In this document: positions 29,432 to 35,704 of the stretch, one piece after another
Numbering within the stretch: position 1 is the first letter of the stretch
How the letters are laid out: each line of letters opens with the position of its first letter
Source of the DNA: Verrucomicrobiota bacterium
Lineage (GTDB): Bacteria > Verrucomicrobiota > Verrucomicrobiia > Limisphaerales > JACQFS01
Length of the DNA: 35,704 nucleotides
NCBI GenBank assembly: GCA_016199935.1
Contig: JACQFS010000072.1
Location: forward strand, 1-35,704
Reading direction: 5' to 3'
The notes under the pieces: generated by a model
Told to the model about the DNA's origin: nothing
Seen by the model: only the letters and a program-made list of their open reading frames with translations
Databases searched by the model: none
Made by a program: the position numbers and the translations under genes

Positions 29432-29986
29432 TTACGCGAAGTCGTGCTCGTCACTCCGCACGATGAGCACCGGGCACGGCGCGTGGCGGACGACACGCTC
29501 GGCGGTGCTACCGAGGAGCGCGTGCTTGATGCCGGTGTAGCCGTGGGTGGCGATGATGAGCAGGTCGGTGTCGGCGGCCTTGGCCGCGTCGCAGATTTCC
29601 CGCCACGAACGGCCGAGGCGCAGCACGGTGTCCGCCTTCACGGTCTTGCCGAGATCCTTCGCGAGCGCGTCGAGGCGGCCGCGGATTTCCTCCATGCGTT
29701 TCTCGTCCAAGTCCTCGGTGGCGAGCGGAACGTAACCGAGCTCGGCGGGATAAAGCATCGGCTCGACGACGTGGATGAGCGTGATGCTGGCGCCAAACTG
29801 CTCGGCAAAGACACGGGCGTAGCGGAGCGCCTGGTGCGACGGCTCGGAGAAATCGAGCGGCACCATGATCTTGCGGATGTGAACCTTGAGCGGCGCGAGT
29901 TCGATGATGGGCGCGGTGGCGCGGCGGTGGCCGGCGCGGTCGGTGACGACGACGGAGACGGAGGTTTTTTTGTTTTTGGTTTTCAT
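29432..29986 (-). CDS. Universal stress protein (UspA family)
   Basis: The 184-aa protein has a basic N-terminal extension (MKTKNKKTSVSVVVTDR, about 35 residues), then the single Usp domain: KIMVPLDFSEPSHQALRYA, ASITLIHVVEP and the nucleotide-binding region THGYTGIKHALLGSTAERV with PCPVLIVR. The GX9G(S/T) part is intact, with Ala replacing the first Gly of the G2XG element, so ATP binding is likely. It follows the CBM48-like gene by 47 nt on the same strand. Both proteins begin with a similar M-K-x-K-N-K-K leader. Confidence 0.9.
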   Translation of the reverse strand: MKTKNKKTSVSVVVTDRAGHRRATAPIIELAPLKVHIRKIMVPLDFSEPSHQALRYARVFAEQFGASITLIHVVEPMLYPAELGYVPLATEDLDEKRMEEIRGRLDALAKDLGKTVKADTVLRLGRSWREICDAAKAADTDLLIIATHGYTGIKHALLGSTAERVVRHAPCPVLIVRSDEHDFA

Positions 29987-30033
29987 AGGGGGGATCCTTC
30001 GGTTCGGCTGACGTCAAAAACCTAGCACATATT

Positions 30034-30336
30034 TCACATTGCGGCCCGGCTCGCAACGGTCACCACACTGTTTACGCCGCCGAACGGATTGGGAACGGTC
30101 GCCCGCGCACCGGGATCGGGCCACCACTGGCCGTCCACAACGAAGAGGTATTCGTGGGCACCCGGCGGCAGCGCGAGATCCTTGGCCCAGCGTCCACCGC
30201 CGAGGTCAATCATTGGCGAGGCGGCGGGATGCCAGTCGTTGAAGGAGCCGGCGACGCAGACTTCGCGCGCGGCGGTGGCGGCAAGTTCGAAATGAACCGC
30301 CGCCGGGACTTTCGGTTTTTTGTTTTTGGGCTTCAT
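30034..30336 (-). CDS. Small CBM48/AMPK glycogen-binding-like protein
   Basis: The 100-aa protein is a single early-set domain: VHFELAATAAREVCVAGSFN, DWHPAASPM, RWAKDLALPPGAHEYLFVVD and GQWWPDPGA. This is the glycogen-binding module of isoamylase N-domains and AMPK beta, with conserved Trp and the G-SFNDW motif. It has no catalytic domain, so it probably binds glycogen or an alpha-glucan and tethers or regulates a partner. The N-terminus is Lys-rich (MKPKNKKPKV). The Usp gene follows 47 nt downstream, suggesting one stress-related transcript. Confidence 0.85.
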   Translation of the reverse strand: MKPKNKKPKVPAAVHFELAATAAREVCVAGSFNDWHPAASPMIDLGGGRWAKDLALPPGAHEYLFVVDGQWWPDPGARATVPNPFGGVNSVVTVASRAAM

Positions 30337-30521
30337 GGTGTTGTGGGGTGTTCGGGTGTGAACTTGGACGCCGTTGGCCCGTCCGGCATTTCAGATCTTG
30401 GCAAAGCGTGGCTGAATCTTGCCGGACGCGCGCGGCGGTCCGGAAGCGCCAAGCCAAAAATGTCACCACCTTTGGCAAAGAACGGAGAGGGCGGCGGGCG
30501 GCGTTGAGTTATCGAACGGGC

Positions 30522-30728
30522 ATGAAAACCGACCTCCTTGCCCGTGAAACGTCGGCTCCGGCCCGGTGGCCGGGCCGCGCCGTAAACCAGCCCAGTCTGG
30601 CCGGGGCGACCACGCCTCCACGGGCGACGCAGCCGCCGGCGGAATTGGTCGGCGAAGAGCTGACCGGGTGGCTGGCGGATTTCCTCTCGGGCAATGATCC
30701 GTGCGAACCACACACCGGCGACTGCTGA
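30522..30728 (+). CDS. Short hypothetical protein with Cys at the C-terminus
   Basis: A 68-aa open frame from ATG 30522 ends 21 nt before the radical SAM gene on the same strand. It has a Pro/Ala-rich middle (AGATTPPRATQPPAELVG), a short amphipathic helix (EELTGWLADFLSG) and ends NDPCEPHTGDC, with both Cys near the C-terminus. No family is recognised and no obvious ribosome-binding site supports it strongly. Position directly before a radical SAM gene makes it a possible small substrate or partner. It could also be a chance frame in GC-rich DNA. Confidence 0.4.
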   Translation: MKTDLLARETSAPARWPGRAVNQPSLAGATTPPRATQPPAELVGEELTGWLADFLSGNDPCEPHTGDC

Positions 30729-30749
30729 GGCGCCGGCCACTTTTTAACG

Positions 30750-31571
30750 ATGCCTCCGACGCTCGATATGCCTCCCGTCACCGGACGTTATGCGTGCCTG
30801 AAGCTCTGCCCGCGCGCCGGCGGCGTGTGCGTGGATCTCAATTTCAACCCGGCGTGCGATTGCAACTTCGACTGCATCTATTGCTCGGTGGATCGCCGGC
30901 GCGCGGTGCCGTGCGGGCGCATTGATCCGGACGCGCTCGCGGAGGAACTGGCGCGCGCGCTCGCGGGCGTGACCGAGCGGTGTGAGCCGGAGCCGGGCGA
31001 GCCACGCAGCTTCCCGCTCCGACTGGTCGCCATCAGCGGCGACGGCGAGCCGACGCTCTGCCCGCAATTCGCCGAGGCCGTCGAGGCGGTGATGCACCTG
31101 CGCGCGTTACAGCGGTTTCCATTCTTCAAGATCGCGCTCCTCACCAATGGCTCCGGACTGGATCGCCCCGAGGTGGAGCGCGCGCTCCAGCTTTTTTGCG
31201 CCGACGATGAAGTGTGGGTGAAGCTCGACGCGGGGGGGCAGGAATGGATGAGCATCGTCAACCGCCCGTCGGACCTCACGCTCGACCAGATCACCGCCAA
31301 GCTGCTCCGCTTCGCGCGCCGGCGACCGATCATCGTGCAGACCCTTTTCCCCTCCGTGCATGGCCGCGGGCCGGATGACGCGGAGATTCAGCGCTACATT
31401 TTCCGGCTGCGCAGCCTCGTGAACGACGGCGCGTGCATCGCGGGGGTCCAGATTTATTCGGCGTCCAGCCCGACAGCCGACGCGGCCTGCGGTCACCTGC
31501 CGTTGCGAACGCTTTCCCACATCGCCCGCGTCGTGCGCGAGGCCACGGGTTTGAAAGTGGAGGTATTCTGA
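30750..31571 (+). CDS. Radical SAM protein (COG0731-like)
   Basis: The 273-aa protein has the radical SAM [4Fe-4S] motif CNFDCIYC (C38-x3-C42-x2-C45), preceded by extra Cys residues (ACLKLCPRAGGVCVD; C16, C20, C27, C36). It also has SGDGEPTLCP (96-105, SAM-binding GGE-like motif) and IALLTNGSGLDRPEV. The length fits a core TIM-barrel enzyme with no SPASM or other C-terminal Fe-S domain. The reaction is unknown; COG0731-type labels cover varied activities, including activases and tRNA-modification-like enzymes. The stop overlaps the ATG of the PocR-AraC gene (TGATG), so the two are translationally coupled. Confidence 0.85.
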   Translation: MPPTLDMPPVTGRYACLKLCPRAGGVCVDLNFNPACDCNFDCIYCSVDRRRAVPCGRIDPDALAEELARALAGVTERCEPEPGEPRSFPLRLVAISGDGEPTLCPQFAEAVEAVMHLRALQRFPFFKIALLTNGSGLDRPEVERALQLFCADDEVWVKLDAGGQEWMSIVNRPSDLTLDQITAKLLRFARRRPIIVQTLFPSVHGRGPDDAEIQRYIFRLRSLVNDGACIAGVQIYSASSPTADAACGHLPLRTLSHIARVVREATGLKVEVF

Positions 31572-32647
31572 TGAGCAATGGAAACATCAACGGCTGTGCG
31601 TGCGCCCCGAACGGGCCTTGTCACGCGCAGGACAAACCATGGCCGAAGTCCGCCCGCCCGGTGCCCGCGCCGCCGCCCGCCACGGCTTCATCCGCGGCTT
31701 CATCCTTGCCGCCGCCCGCGCGGACGGCCATGCTCCGCGACGTGAACGACAAGGCCAACCGGCATCTGCTCGAGCAACTCTCCAAGTCGCGGATGTTTCA
31801 GGATTACGAGCGGGCATTCAGCGCGGCCACGGGGATGCCCCTCACGCTCCGGCCGGCCGAAGTCTGGCAGGTCGCGCATCACGGCAAGAAGGACCAGAAC
31901 CCGTTTTGTGCGCTGATGGCGAAAACCAGCCGCACCTGTGCCGCGTGCCTGGAGGTGCAGCAAAAAATTTCCCAGCAGGCCGACGACGACTCCTGCTCCG
32001 CGACGTGCTTTGCGGGGATGTGCGACACGGCGGTGCCCATCCGGCTGGGCAAGGAACTCGTCGGCTACCTCCAGACCGGCCAGGTCTTCACGCGCAAACC
32101 CACCAAGGCGATGTTTGACAGGACCACGCGCCAGCTCGTGCAGTGGGGATTGAAGACGGATTTCAAGCAGATGGAGGAGGCTTATTTCCACACGCGCATC
32201 ATCTCGCCCAAACAATACGAGGCGATGGTCCGCCTGCTCACCATCTTCGGCCAGCACCTGAGCGTCATCAGCAACCAGCTCGCGGTGCAGGAGGCCAACG
32301 CGGAACCGCCGGTCATCGCGCGCGCCAAGCAGTTCATCCACGACCACCAGACCGAGGAGCTTTCGCTCGGCCTGGTCTCCAAGGCCGTCAACACCAGCAG
32401 CTTTTATTTCTGCAAGCTGTTCAAGAAGGCCACCGGCATCAACTTCACCGAATACGTCTCGCGCGTGCGCGTGGAGAAGGCGAAAAATCTTCTGCTCAAC
32501 CCGAACCTGCGCATCAGCGAGATCGCCTACGAGGTCGGCTTCCAGTCGCTCACGCACTTCAACCGCATCTTCCGCAAGCTCACCGGCCAGTCCCCCACCG
32601 ACTATCGTGAGAAGCTCCCGAAGTTCGACGCGGTGAAAAGGAACTGA
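31571..32647 (+). CDS. AraC-family regulator with PocR sensory domain and Cys-rich N-terminus
   Basis: The 358-aa protein has four parts. Residues 1-25 are Cys-rich (CACAPNGPC). A Pro/Ala/Ser linker (about 30-52) follows. The PocR domain (about 60-240) has a Cys array at C113, C123, C126, C142, C146 and C151 and the AVPIRLGKELVGYLQTGQVF strand. Two helix-turn-helix motifs of AraC type (about 250-350) have LGLVSKAVNTSSFYFCKLFK and ISEIAYEVGFQSLTHFNRIF. PocR-type domains sense small ligands or metals; the ligand here is unknown. It probably binds DNA as a transcription activator. It is cotranslated with the radical SAM protein. Confidence 0.9.
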   Translation: MSNGNINGCACAPNGPCHAQDKPWPKSARPVPAPPPATASSAASSLPPPARTAMLRDVNDKANRHLLEQLSKSRMFQDYERAFSAATGMPLTLRPAEVWQVAHHGKKDQNPFCALMAKTSRTCAACLEVQQKISQQADDDSCSATCFAGMCDTAVPIRLGKELVGYLQTGQVFTRKPTKAMFDRTTRQLVQWGLKTDFKQMEEAYFHTRIISPKQYEAMVRLLTIFGQHLSVISNQLAVQEANAEPPVIARAKQFIHDHQTEELSLGLVSKAVNTSSFYFCKLFKKATGINFTEYVSRVRVEKAKNLLLNPNLRISEIAYEVGFQSLTHFNRIFRKLTGQSPTDYREKLPKFDAVKRN

Positions 32648-32722
32648 GCCGTCGGACGGCGGGCCAACCCCCGCCCGATACTCCGCCGCGGCGCTGCTTT
32701 ATCCTCCCCACCTTGCGGAGTT

Positions 32723-35704
32723 TCATGAACCGACAGCATGGGCGTCGTGCAAACCCGGTGGTGCGAGTCGCGGCAGCCACCGCCGAATCCGGGCGCGTTC
32801 GCGGCAGCCCACCCACCCGATGAGAAAGATGACGCTCACGATGGTGGCCGGCTCGGGCACGGGGACGATCTCGCCGGAACTCAGCATCGTGGCGGCATAG
32901 GTGCCCGTCAGACCATTGGGATCGACGAACCGAATCAGACTGAGCTCGCCACTGGTGAGGCCGCTGGCGTCCGTGCCAAAATAAATCTGATCGGTCCCGC
33001 CGCCGCCGCCGCCCGGACCGCTGCCGGTCCAATCCACGATGTTCAGCACCCCGCCGGTCCAGGTGGCGGAGGAACTTTTTCCGAAATGCAAGATGCTGGC
33101 GCCGTTCCCCATCTCAAGAGTCGAGGTGGCCGACAACGTGAGCGTCCCGATCGTGTCGCTCAACCCGCCCGTGTCGAGAGTGCCGCCGGCCAGATTCAGG
33201 TTGGCCTGGCCGTTGATGCGCTGGGCCGCGCCCAGGAGCAGCGTCCCCTGATTGATGACCACCGTGCTGCCGCCGATCTGCTGGTCCACCTGCACGGTGC
33301 CGGCGCCGGTCTTGGTCAGCGTGCCGAGGCCGGTCAAGGGAGTGGAACCGTTGATGAAATTTGTCCCGGCGGAAATGTTCATCGTGATGTCCGGCGAGTG
33401 GGTCAGCGTCGTGCCGTCGGATTCCACGTCGCCGCTGACGATCAATTTTCCGTGGCTGGCGGCGAGACCGCCATCCAACTGTCCGCCGCTCAAGGTCGCC
33501 TGGCCGGCAATCGTCAGCGTCCGCGCGGTCAACGGGCTGCCGCCGGCGAGGACGAAAGTTCCGCCCGTGATGTCGAGCGTGCTGGTTCCGGTGCCGGTCA
33601 GCGTTTCGTCTTTCGCCAGTTCCACGCGGCCGCCTTTGACCACGAGACCATTCCAGTTCGCGAGATCGTTCGCCGCGGCGCCGAGCGAATACACAGTGTT
33701 CGTCGTTCCGCCGGTCACGTCGAAGCCCAGCCGCAGGTTGCTCGCCGACGAGGGCGCCTTGCTGAACGTGTTCGTCGAGTTCTCGTTCGCATACGCGATG
33801 GTCAGCGTGCCGTCGGTGCCGCTCAAACCCTGCACGCGCGCGGTCGTCAGCAAAGCGTCCACGACCGCCGCGGATCCGGCCACGGTCAGGCCGCCGAGGC
33901 CGGCGCCGTTGATGGTGAGGGTGGAACTGGAATTGAAAGTCGTGTTGCTGCCGAGCGACAATGTGGAGTCCGAGCCGGTGATGCCCTGGCCGATGAAATT
34001 GCGCGCCGAGGTGCTGCCGATGAGTTTGGTTCCGGCTCCCGTCGTGGCCAAGGTCGCCCCCGCCGCCAGCGTGATGTCCTGCGCCGCCGAGGAATCCAAC
34101 CGGACTTCATCCGCGCTGCTCGCGGCGTTCAGCGTGAGCGTGCCGCTGTCAATGTTGATCGGCCCGCCAAATTGCAAATAGCCGCCCGCGCCGTCGCCGC
34201 CCGCGTCAGTGAGGAACGCGTTGCCCGTCGTCGTCAGGAGCACCGTGCCCGTGAACTTCGTCGGGCTGCCGCTGGCGTCAATGCGTCTGATCGTGCCGTC
34301 ATCAATGGTGAGGGAAGTGACGGCGGCATTGTTGGCGGAATCATGCCAGTTGGCCTGAAGTTCCGCCCCGCCATTGATCGTGAGATCGCCGGTGCCCAGC
34401 GCCCGCCGCTCGGACATCTTCAACGTGCCGGCGTCCACGGTGGTCCCGCCGGTGTAGGTGTTGATCCCGGTGAACTCCAGCAGGCCGAGGTCGCCCTTGT
34501 CCACGCCGCCCGCGCCCGAGATCACCGCGCTCACCTGCATATCGGTCGCCGCCGTGCCCTCGGCGATGTTGAAAATGCTCACGTTCGCCAGCGCCAATTT
34601 GCCGGTGATGGTCGCGGTGGTGGCGCTGGCGTTGCCCGTCACGTCCCCGGCCACCGTCAGCGTGCCGGTGCCGGTGATGGCATTGCCGCCGCCCACGGTC
34701 AGGTTGTTGAATTGATTGTCGCGGTTGTTCAAGTCGAGTCGGCCGTCGCTGGCGATCGTCACATTGGCCGTGGTCGGGATGAAGTTGCTGTTTTGCAATT
34801 GCACCACGGCGGAGTTGGCCGCGCCGATGTCATCGCCGATGATCAGATTGCCGCCCAAGGCGAGATTGCCCACGGTGACATTCAGGGAAAGTGTTCCGTC
34901 GTTCACCGTCGTGTCGCCGACGTAGCTGTTGGCGGTGCCGGTGAAACTCAGCGTCCCCGTGCCGTTCTTGGTGAAACCGCCGCTGCCCGAGATCGAGGAA
35001 TTGACCGTGACGTTGCCGTTGCCCACCGTCGTCAACGTGCCGCCGGTGAGGTTGATGGTGTTGAGAAAAGTCGTTCCGCTGCCGAGCGTCAGCGGGTGGG
35101 TGTCCGCGCCGACCGTCGCGTCCGCGCTGATCACCAGATTGCCTTCCCAGCGGTTGGTGCCGCTCACGCTGCGCAACGCGCCGTTCCCAGCCGGGCCGGC
35201 TCCGCTCAAAGTCAGGGACTCGCCCACCACCACGAGGCCGCCGGAAAATTCCACGGCACCACCGGAGTTGACCACCGTGCCGTTGTTGGTCGCGCCGAGC
35301 GCCGCGGCCGATTGGAGAGTCAGCACGCCCGCGTTCACGGTGGTCAGACCGGTGTAAGCGTTGGTCCGCGTCAACGTGACGGAGTTGGTGGTGGACTTGG
35401 TGAGCGCGCCGCTGCCGTTGAGGATGGCGGAGATGGAACCGCTCTCGACGTTGTAGGCGCTGGCCGTCAGCACGCCGGTGGTGCCGGTGATGGAGCCGCC
35501 GTTCTTCAACGTCACCACGCCCACAGTGTCGCTGTTGGTGCCCAAGCTGAAGACGGCGGTCGCGCCGTCCACCGCCACCGCGCCGGAATCCGCGAGGACG
35601 TTGTTCGCGCCCAGCGCGAGCGTGCCGGCGCTGACGGTGCTGCCGCCGGAGTAAGAGTTCGCGCCGCTGAGGGTGACGGTGTTCGTCGTGGACTTGGTGA
35701 GTGC
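32723..35704 (-). CDS. PATR-repeat surface protein with PEP-CTERM signal (5' end beyond window)
   Basis: The frame is open from the window edge to a TGA at 32723 (993 codons visible). It consists of autotransporter-associated beta-strand (PATR) repeats such as NAYTGLTTVNAGVLTL and NTYTGGTTVDAGTLKM, with strings of Gly, Asn, Thr and Ser. Near the C-terminus is the exosortase sorting signal: VPEPATIVSVIFLIGW (PEP box and hydrophobic helix), then a basic cluster CRERARIRR. A further tail of about 18 residues (WLPRLAPPGLHDAHAVGS) follows, which is unusual. The product is a secreted, surface-anchored adhesin or matrix protein. The true N-terminus, with an expected signal peptide, lies outside. Confidence 0.9.
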   Translation of the reverse strand, partial: ALTKSTTNTVTLSGANSYSGGSTVSAGTLALGANNVLADSGAVAVDGATAVFSLGTNSDTVGVVTLKNGGSITGTTGVLTASAYNVESGSISAILNGSGALTKSTTNSVTLTRTNAYTGLTTVNAGVLTLQSAAALGATNNGTVVNSGGAVEFSGGLVVVGESLTLSGAGPAGNGALRSVSGTNRWEGNLVISADATVGADTHPLTLGSGTTFLNTINLTGGTLTTVGNGNVTVNSSISGSGGFTKNGTGTLSFTGTANSYVGDTTVNDGTLSLNVTVGNLALGGNLIIGDDIGAANSAVVQLQNSNFIPTTANVTIASDGRLDLNNRDNQFNNLTVGGGNAITGTGTLTVAGDVTGNASATTATITGKLALANVSIFNIAEGTAATDMQVSAVISGAGGVDKGDLGLLEFTGINTYTGGTTVDAGTLKMSERRALGTGDLTINGGAELQANWHDSANNAAVTSLTIDDGTIRRIDASGSPTKFTGTVLLTTTGNAFLTDAGGDGAGGYLQFGGPINIDSGTLTLNAASSADEVRLDSSAAQDITLAAGATLATTGAGTKLIGSTSARNFIGQGITGSDSTLSLGSNTTFNSSSTLTINGAGLGGLTVAGSAAVVDALLTTARVQGLSGTDGTLTIAYANENSTNTFSKAPSSASNLRLGFDVTGGTTNTVYSLGAAANDLANWNGLVVKGGRVELAKDETLTGTGTSTLDITGGTFVLAGGSPLTARTLTIAGQATLSGGQLDGGLAASHGKLIVSGDVESDGTTLTHSPDITMNISAGTNFINGSTPLTGLGTLTKTGAGTVQVDQQIGGSTVVINQGTLLLGAAQRINGQANLNLAGGTLDTGGLSDTIGTLTLSATSTLEMGNGASILHFGKSSSATWTGGVLNIVDWTGSGPGGGGGGTDQIYFGTDASGLTSGELSLIRFVDPNGLTGTYAATMLSSGEIVPVPEPATIVSVIFLIGWVGCRERARIRRWLPRLAPPGLHDAHAVGS

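Follow-up and report, generated by a model that had tools for sequence, protein, structure and literature searches.

The locus analysed here raises the question of why a stand-alone radical SAM enzyme gene stands directly ahead of a Cys-rich PocR-AraC regulator gene and what the enzyme might act on. The window is the whole stretch of DNA that was analysed, 35,704 nucleotides that make up a single whole contig (G000:C163); its order-mates include records under the names Verrucomicrobia subdivision 3, Limisphaerales and Pedosphaera. A sequence-only reading had proposed that the two genes are translationally coupled, and that either the regulator N-terminus or a small upstream ORF could be the substrate of the enzyme, or that the regulator could sense the product of the enzyme or its Fe-S state. 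The relevant features of the window are the following.

29432..29986, - strand: universal stress protein (USP), divergent from the enzyme (PF00582, E 1.7e-36)
30034..30336, - strand: 100-aa AMPK-type glycogen-binding (CBM48-like) protein, between the USP and the enzyme (PF16561, 45.2 bits)
30522..30728, + strand: 68-codon ORF, most likely no gene of the enzyme-regulator system
30750..31571, + strand: stand-alone radical SAM enzyme, 273 aa (PF04055; CX3CX2C at Cys38/42/45)
30795..30857, + strand: stretch of the enzyme with four extra Cys (16, 20, 27 and 36) ahead of the cluster motif
31559..31573, + strand: GGAGG followed by the TGATG stop/start overlap, as read in the sequence
31571..31729, + strand: stretch with CACAPNGPC that may extend the regulator at its N-terminus, either a variable, probably disordered linker or untranslated
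31730..32647, + strand: core of the PocR-AraC regulator, a predicted GAF-like sensory domain (PF10114) followed by an AraC HTH (PF12833)

The landmarks named in the earlier reading (the 68-codon ORF, the radical SAM gene, the TGATG overlap and the PocR-AraC regulator) were all found where it had placed them, as were the six clustered Cys of the PocR domain, the N-terminal CACAPNGPC, the four Cys that precede the enzyme motif and the two Cys that end the ORF. A scan for sigma-70 sites across 29900-32800 revealed no promoter-like site. Among the 77 enzyme loci with at least 1200 bases upstream, the AMPK-type glycogen-binding gene lay near the enzyme only in the window itself, and its position was not conserved. 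Beyond the regulator, the - strand of the window (32723-35578) encodes a long PATR-repeat surface protein (PF12951) with a C-terminus that appeared PEP-CTERM-like by eye.

The enzyme scored 34.1 bits against the Pfam profile PF04055 (cut-off of 29.5) and belongs to the radical SAM superfamily; its codon score of 0.125 fell below 0.134, the value at the 5th percentile for gene windows. In the predicted model (pLDDT of 82), the barrel filled the structure and no added domain was present. The structural overlays of this model revealed similarity to RlmN (VIA-align Z-score of 18.3 and rmsd of 3.3 over 240 aligned residues), PFL-AE (Z-score of 17.8 and rmsd of 3.1 over 224) and TYW1 (Z-score of 17.2 and rmsd of 4.2 over 242), and neither Pfam nor NCBIfam gave a match to a SPASM or similar C-terminal domain in the 273-aa protein. 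As modelled, the enzyme is a TYW1/PFL-activase/RlmN-like barrel without a SPASM or other added domain. The barrel is similar to that of RlmN and pyruvate formate-lyase activating enzyme, although the sequence identity to these proteins was 13-16% and no family-level match was found in Pfam or NCBIfam. The radical SAM barrel and the GEPTL region were also common to TYW1/Taw1 (4-demethylwyosine synthase), to which a weak profile match was obtained (MJ0257, named UPF0026 in the PDB; E of 0.28). In contrast to TYW1/Taw1, the window enzyme is bacterial, stand-alone and linked to a regulator, and its 20.7 bits against the TYW1 family TIGR03972 fell far under the curated cut-off of 317.95. Searches of solved structures with the enzyme gave no confident match, and a contig scan using the single enzyme sequence as the query gave no match.

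The enzyme Cys residues were compared with those of 79 relatives at 42% identity or higher, with 15 paralogues set apart. Cys38, Cys42 and Cys45 of the CX3CX2C motif were present in the window enzyme and in all 79 same-clade relatives; Cys104 was present in 58 of the relatives and Cys247 in 73. Of the four Cys that precede the motif, Cys20, Cys27 and Cys36 were common to the window enzyme and its closest relative. The remaining 78 relatives had no Cys at position 20 or 36, and one had a Cys at position 27; Ser occupied position 20 in 77 of the 79 and position 27 in 72 of the 79. Cys16 was found in only one other relative among the 79. This extra set is limited to two lineages, too small a number to call it an additional cluster site. 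We also observed decayed copies of the enzyme in two loci: in L069 (G033:C157), a C-terminal remnant alone lies ahead of an intact regulator, and in L091 (G053:C25), the gene is broken across several frames.

The regulator scored 86.9 bits against PocR (PF10114; cut-off of 23.9) and 89.6 bits against HTH_18 (PF12833; cut-off of 33.6), which places it among the PocR-domain AraC regulators; against the PocR equivalog NF047788 it scored 102.2 bits, below the cut-off of 500. Apart from one weak unrelated match, searches of solved structures with the regulator revealed only AraC HTH relatives. Upon superposition, the predicted sensory domain matched the NifA GAF domain with a Z-score of 9.3 and an rmsd of 3.0 over 112 aligned residues, and on this model the PocR sensory domain is GAF-like. 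NifA is an AAA+ activator. Although the sensory domain fold is common to NifA-type GAF regulators, the window regulator has an AraC HTH, and the comparison covered the fold. The PocR domain of Salmonella PocR binds 1,2-propanediol, and the response to this compound is lost when R51 or D64 of the domain is mutated (PMC11264322). The combination of a PocR sensory domain and an AraC HTH in this propanediol/cobalamin activator is shared by the window regulator; in contrast to Salmonella PocR, the window-type regulators have stress and two-component genes as conserved neighbours.

Six Cys of the regulator are clustered within the PocR domain (positions 113, 123, 126, 142, 146 and 151), and Cys113, Cys123, Cys126 and Cys146 were invariant in 50 of 50 aligned regulators. 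This count was made among the window-type regulators. In a phylum-wide family search, the equivalents of positions 113, 123 and 146 were kept in nearly all of the 27 aligned PocR domains, whereas position 126 varied, as judged by eye. This conservation across the regulators and the wider family indicates that the domain family as a whole mostly accounts for the clustering of Cys. The same four Cys and the overall sequence were retained when no enzyme gene lay near the regulator; therefore, no enzyme-dependent site was visible. It is reasonable to assume that the PocR domain, with its Cys, functions in sensing.

The link between the enzyme and the regulator held up across genomes. In an order-wide search of 320 genomes (enzyme at E <= 1e-60, regulator at E <= 1e-70), we found the enzyme in 163 genomes and the regulator in 218; both were present in 154 genomes, the enzyme alone in 9, the regulator alone in 64 and neither in 93. 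The regulator thus occurred in 154 of the 163 genomes with the enzyme versus 64 of the 157 without it (Fisher p of 4e-27, a value that ignores the kinship of the genomes), and several of the nine enzyme-only genomes are incomplete. Among the 105 distinct regulators with at least 1450 bases of upstream sequence, 18 had the enzyme in tandem upstream. On the tree, the tandem state required 11 changes, at least 6 of them on starred branches; the shuffled mean was 16.9, and none of 500 shuffles was as low. The closest relative of the window (L065/L217, G002:C134) retains the tandem pair, with proteins that are 60% and 78% identical to those of the window. The window pair and this sister fall in a set of 42 regulators, and as the other 40 have no tandem enzyme, the window pair was either gained independently or kept through many losses. 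The pairing is real and recurrent in one group of Verrucomicrobia. A literature search at listing level found no description of the enzyme-PocR-AraC pair.

The neighbourhoods of the two genes revealed a larger module. Its fuller form was found in L199 and L201, in which a USP, the radical SAM enzyme, a cNMP-binding protein, the PocR-AraC regulator, a PAS kinase and a LuxR-type response regulator follow one another in this order, and shorter forms were found in L192, L193, L194, L196, L202 and L203. In 23 of the 77 enzyme loci, the gene immediately upstream of the enzyme was a USP gene in the same orientation, and in 26 of the 77 a USP lay within 3 kb of the enzyme. Around 80 named regulators, we found a kinase in 32 loci, a response regulator in 30, a cNMP-binding protein in 22, a CoA-ligase/acetyltransferase (GNAT) in 14, a USP in 13 and a P-type ATPase in 12. 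The enzyme was near these regulators in 9 of the 80 loci by clustering; of the 62 loci with more than 2500 bases upstream, 10 contained it. In two loci (L072 and L073), FixS (cbb3 oxidase maturation) and HemN adjoin the USP and the radical SAM gene. Because of these partner genes, the module may be concerned with energy, respiration or oxygen stress, a suggestion drawn from the neighbours alone.

A 15-bp palindrome, TAAGGRWWWYCCTTA, was often found upstream of stand-alone regulators (for example, L107:741-755, L113:4585-4599 and L117:4803-4817). When 58 genomes were searched, among them that of the window, 8 had the exact sequence, each of them once and always just upstream of a PocR-AraC gene. 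The pattern had been drawn mainly from seven upstream regions whose seven genomes were among the 58 and supplied five of the eight exact matches; the matches in G017, G019 and G049 played no part in its derivation. This placement is most simply read as autoregulation. The window does not contain the palindrome, and it was not found before the enzyme except between the enzyme and the regulator in one pair. A relaxed search for a palindrome regulon in 15 genomes gave no excess over a reversed-pattern control, and no FNR- or CRP-type box was found in 70 regions upstream of module genes. Additionally, many stand-alone regulators (for example, L107, L108, L113 and L118) have in their upstream region a CCCAATTGT element, approximately 55 nt beyond the palindrome, where TAATTTG or TATTTTG then stands a few bases ahead of ATGCAAACAAC (MQTT...), an arrangement that resembles a leaderless start.

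The coupling proposed from the TGATG motif stood in part. The enzyme TGA (31569-31571) overlaps the regulator ATG (31571-31573), and the GGAGG ends seven bases before this ATG; however, it is uncertain whether the regulator starts at 31571, and the overlap is peculiar to this genome, as 82-196 nt separate the two genes in the nine other tandem pairs in which both genes were called. The gene caller favoured the ATG at 31730, which is near the starts of the relatives. The codon scores of 31571-31729 (-0.241) and of the 68-codon ORF (-0.079) were under the same 5th percentile of gene windows, which low-complexity coding sequence could also cause. CACAPNGPC occupies residues 9-17 of the extended regulator, and residues 1-56 nearly all had a pLDDT below 50 in the predicted model. 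A CxC...C N-terminal segment was found in 1 of 72 regulators, that of the window; it was found in none of the other 71, and other regulators start just ahead of the core or bear low-complexity extensions unrelated in sequence, and the regulator of the closest relative begins without any Cys segment.

The 68-codon ORF, which ends in PCEPHTGDC, fared similarly. It had no Pfam or NCBIfam match, its best hit in a blast search against the neighbours had an E of 0.034, and besides itself only 15 weak, chance-level matches (E 0.0015-0.0095) and no credible homologue were found in the 320 genomes of the order. The closest relative has no small ORF upstream of its enzyme, and the pair is kept there without either the ORF or the Cys segment, the very finding that the earlier reading had named as refuting its proposal. 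Both elements are peculiar to this genome and probably unimportant. The substrate proposals of the earlier reading thus fell away, while its link between enzyme and regulator stood, so that this interpretation was partly supported overall.

Taken together, we consider that the following reading has an even chance of being correct: the locus would be a reduced version of a module of the stress/low-oxygen type that belongs to Verrucomicrobia subdivision 3 (Limisphaerales). In this module, a PocR-AraC activator would use its GAF-like PocR domain, with the four invariant Cys, to sense either a small metabolite or the redox/metal state, and would turn on the stand-alone TYW1-like radical SAM enzyme as well as stress genes. 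The one-base stop/start overlap of this genome would additionally match the amounts of both proteins if the upstream start is used. The target of the enzyme, which may be a metabolite, a tRNA or another protein, would be encoded elsewhere and would be neither the regulator N-terminus nor the small ORF. The domains, the recurrent pairing, the shared distribution and the module partners are observed; the direction of control, the nature of the signal and the target of the enzyme are inferred. Against this reading, the regulator occurred without the enzyme in 64 of its 218 genomes, and only 10 of the 62 loci with sufficient upstream sequence contained the enzyme.

It is also conceivable, but rather unlikely, that RNA or a small metabolite is the substrate of a TYW1-like or RlmN-like reaction in which the enzyme never directly contacts the regulator, and that the pairing is mere neighbourhood without control by the regulator. 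TYW1 and RlmN are among the closest folds, and the weak MJ0257 match points the same way. A second radical SAM clade, approximately 37% identical to the enzyme (G000:C145:43786-44562 in L002 and L070, and paralogues), is widespread and does not adjoin the regulator in the loci examined, which is also in line with this explanation. However, the score of the enzyme lies far below the TYW1 cut-off, and the recurrent pairing suggests more than coincidence. In several loci, members of this second clade lie directly downstream of an enoyl-ACP-reductase-like gene (FabI-like by eye).

We consider it unlikely that the substrate modified by the enzyme is one of the module proteins, namely the regulator in its conserved core or the USP. 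The rarity of the enzyme without the regulator (9 of 163 genomes), the loci with a USP directly upstream and the fold that the enzyme model has in common with the protein-modifying PFL activase are consistent with such a role, but regulators that lack a nearby enzyme show no difference in the four Cys or in their sequence overall, most enzyme loci have no USP within 3 kb, and the same fold also serves tRNA and small-molecule substrates. A version in which the four-Cys PocR/GAF domain is an Fe-S or metal oxygen/redox switch, and the enzyme modifies this sensor or the USP or makes its signal, appears decidedly improbable; if true, sensor and enzyme would form a new kind of couple, and this couple would control a programme of low-oxygen stress in Verrucomicrobia.

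It is very unlikely that the two genes of the window came to adjoin through a local rearrangement by chance and without functional meaning; the 40 regulators of the window's set without a tandem enzyme would fit this explanation, but it was rejected because the same order and strand recur across several families. A RiPP-like system with the small ORF or the N-terminal Cys segment as its substrate is extremely improbable and was rejected: both candidates are Cys-bearing and adjacent in the window, but neither is conserved, both are weak in coding signal, the closest relative has the pair without either and the enzyme has no SPASM match.

If the activator reading is right, it would assign a conserved regulatory module to a family of TYW1-like radical SAM enzymes that is uncharacterised, and PocR domains would gain a second setting, beside stress and respiration genes, in addition to the propanediol sensing described for Salmonella PocR. 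It could then be tested in a cultivable Verrucomicrobium, both for the substrate of the enzyme and for a cluster or metal at the PocR cysteines.
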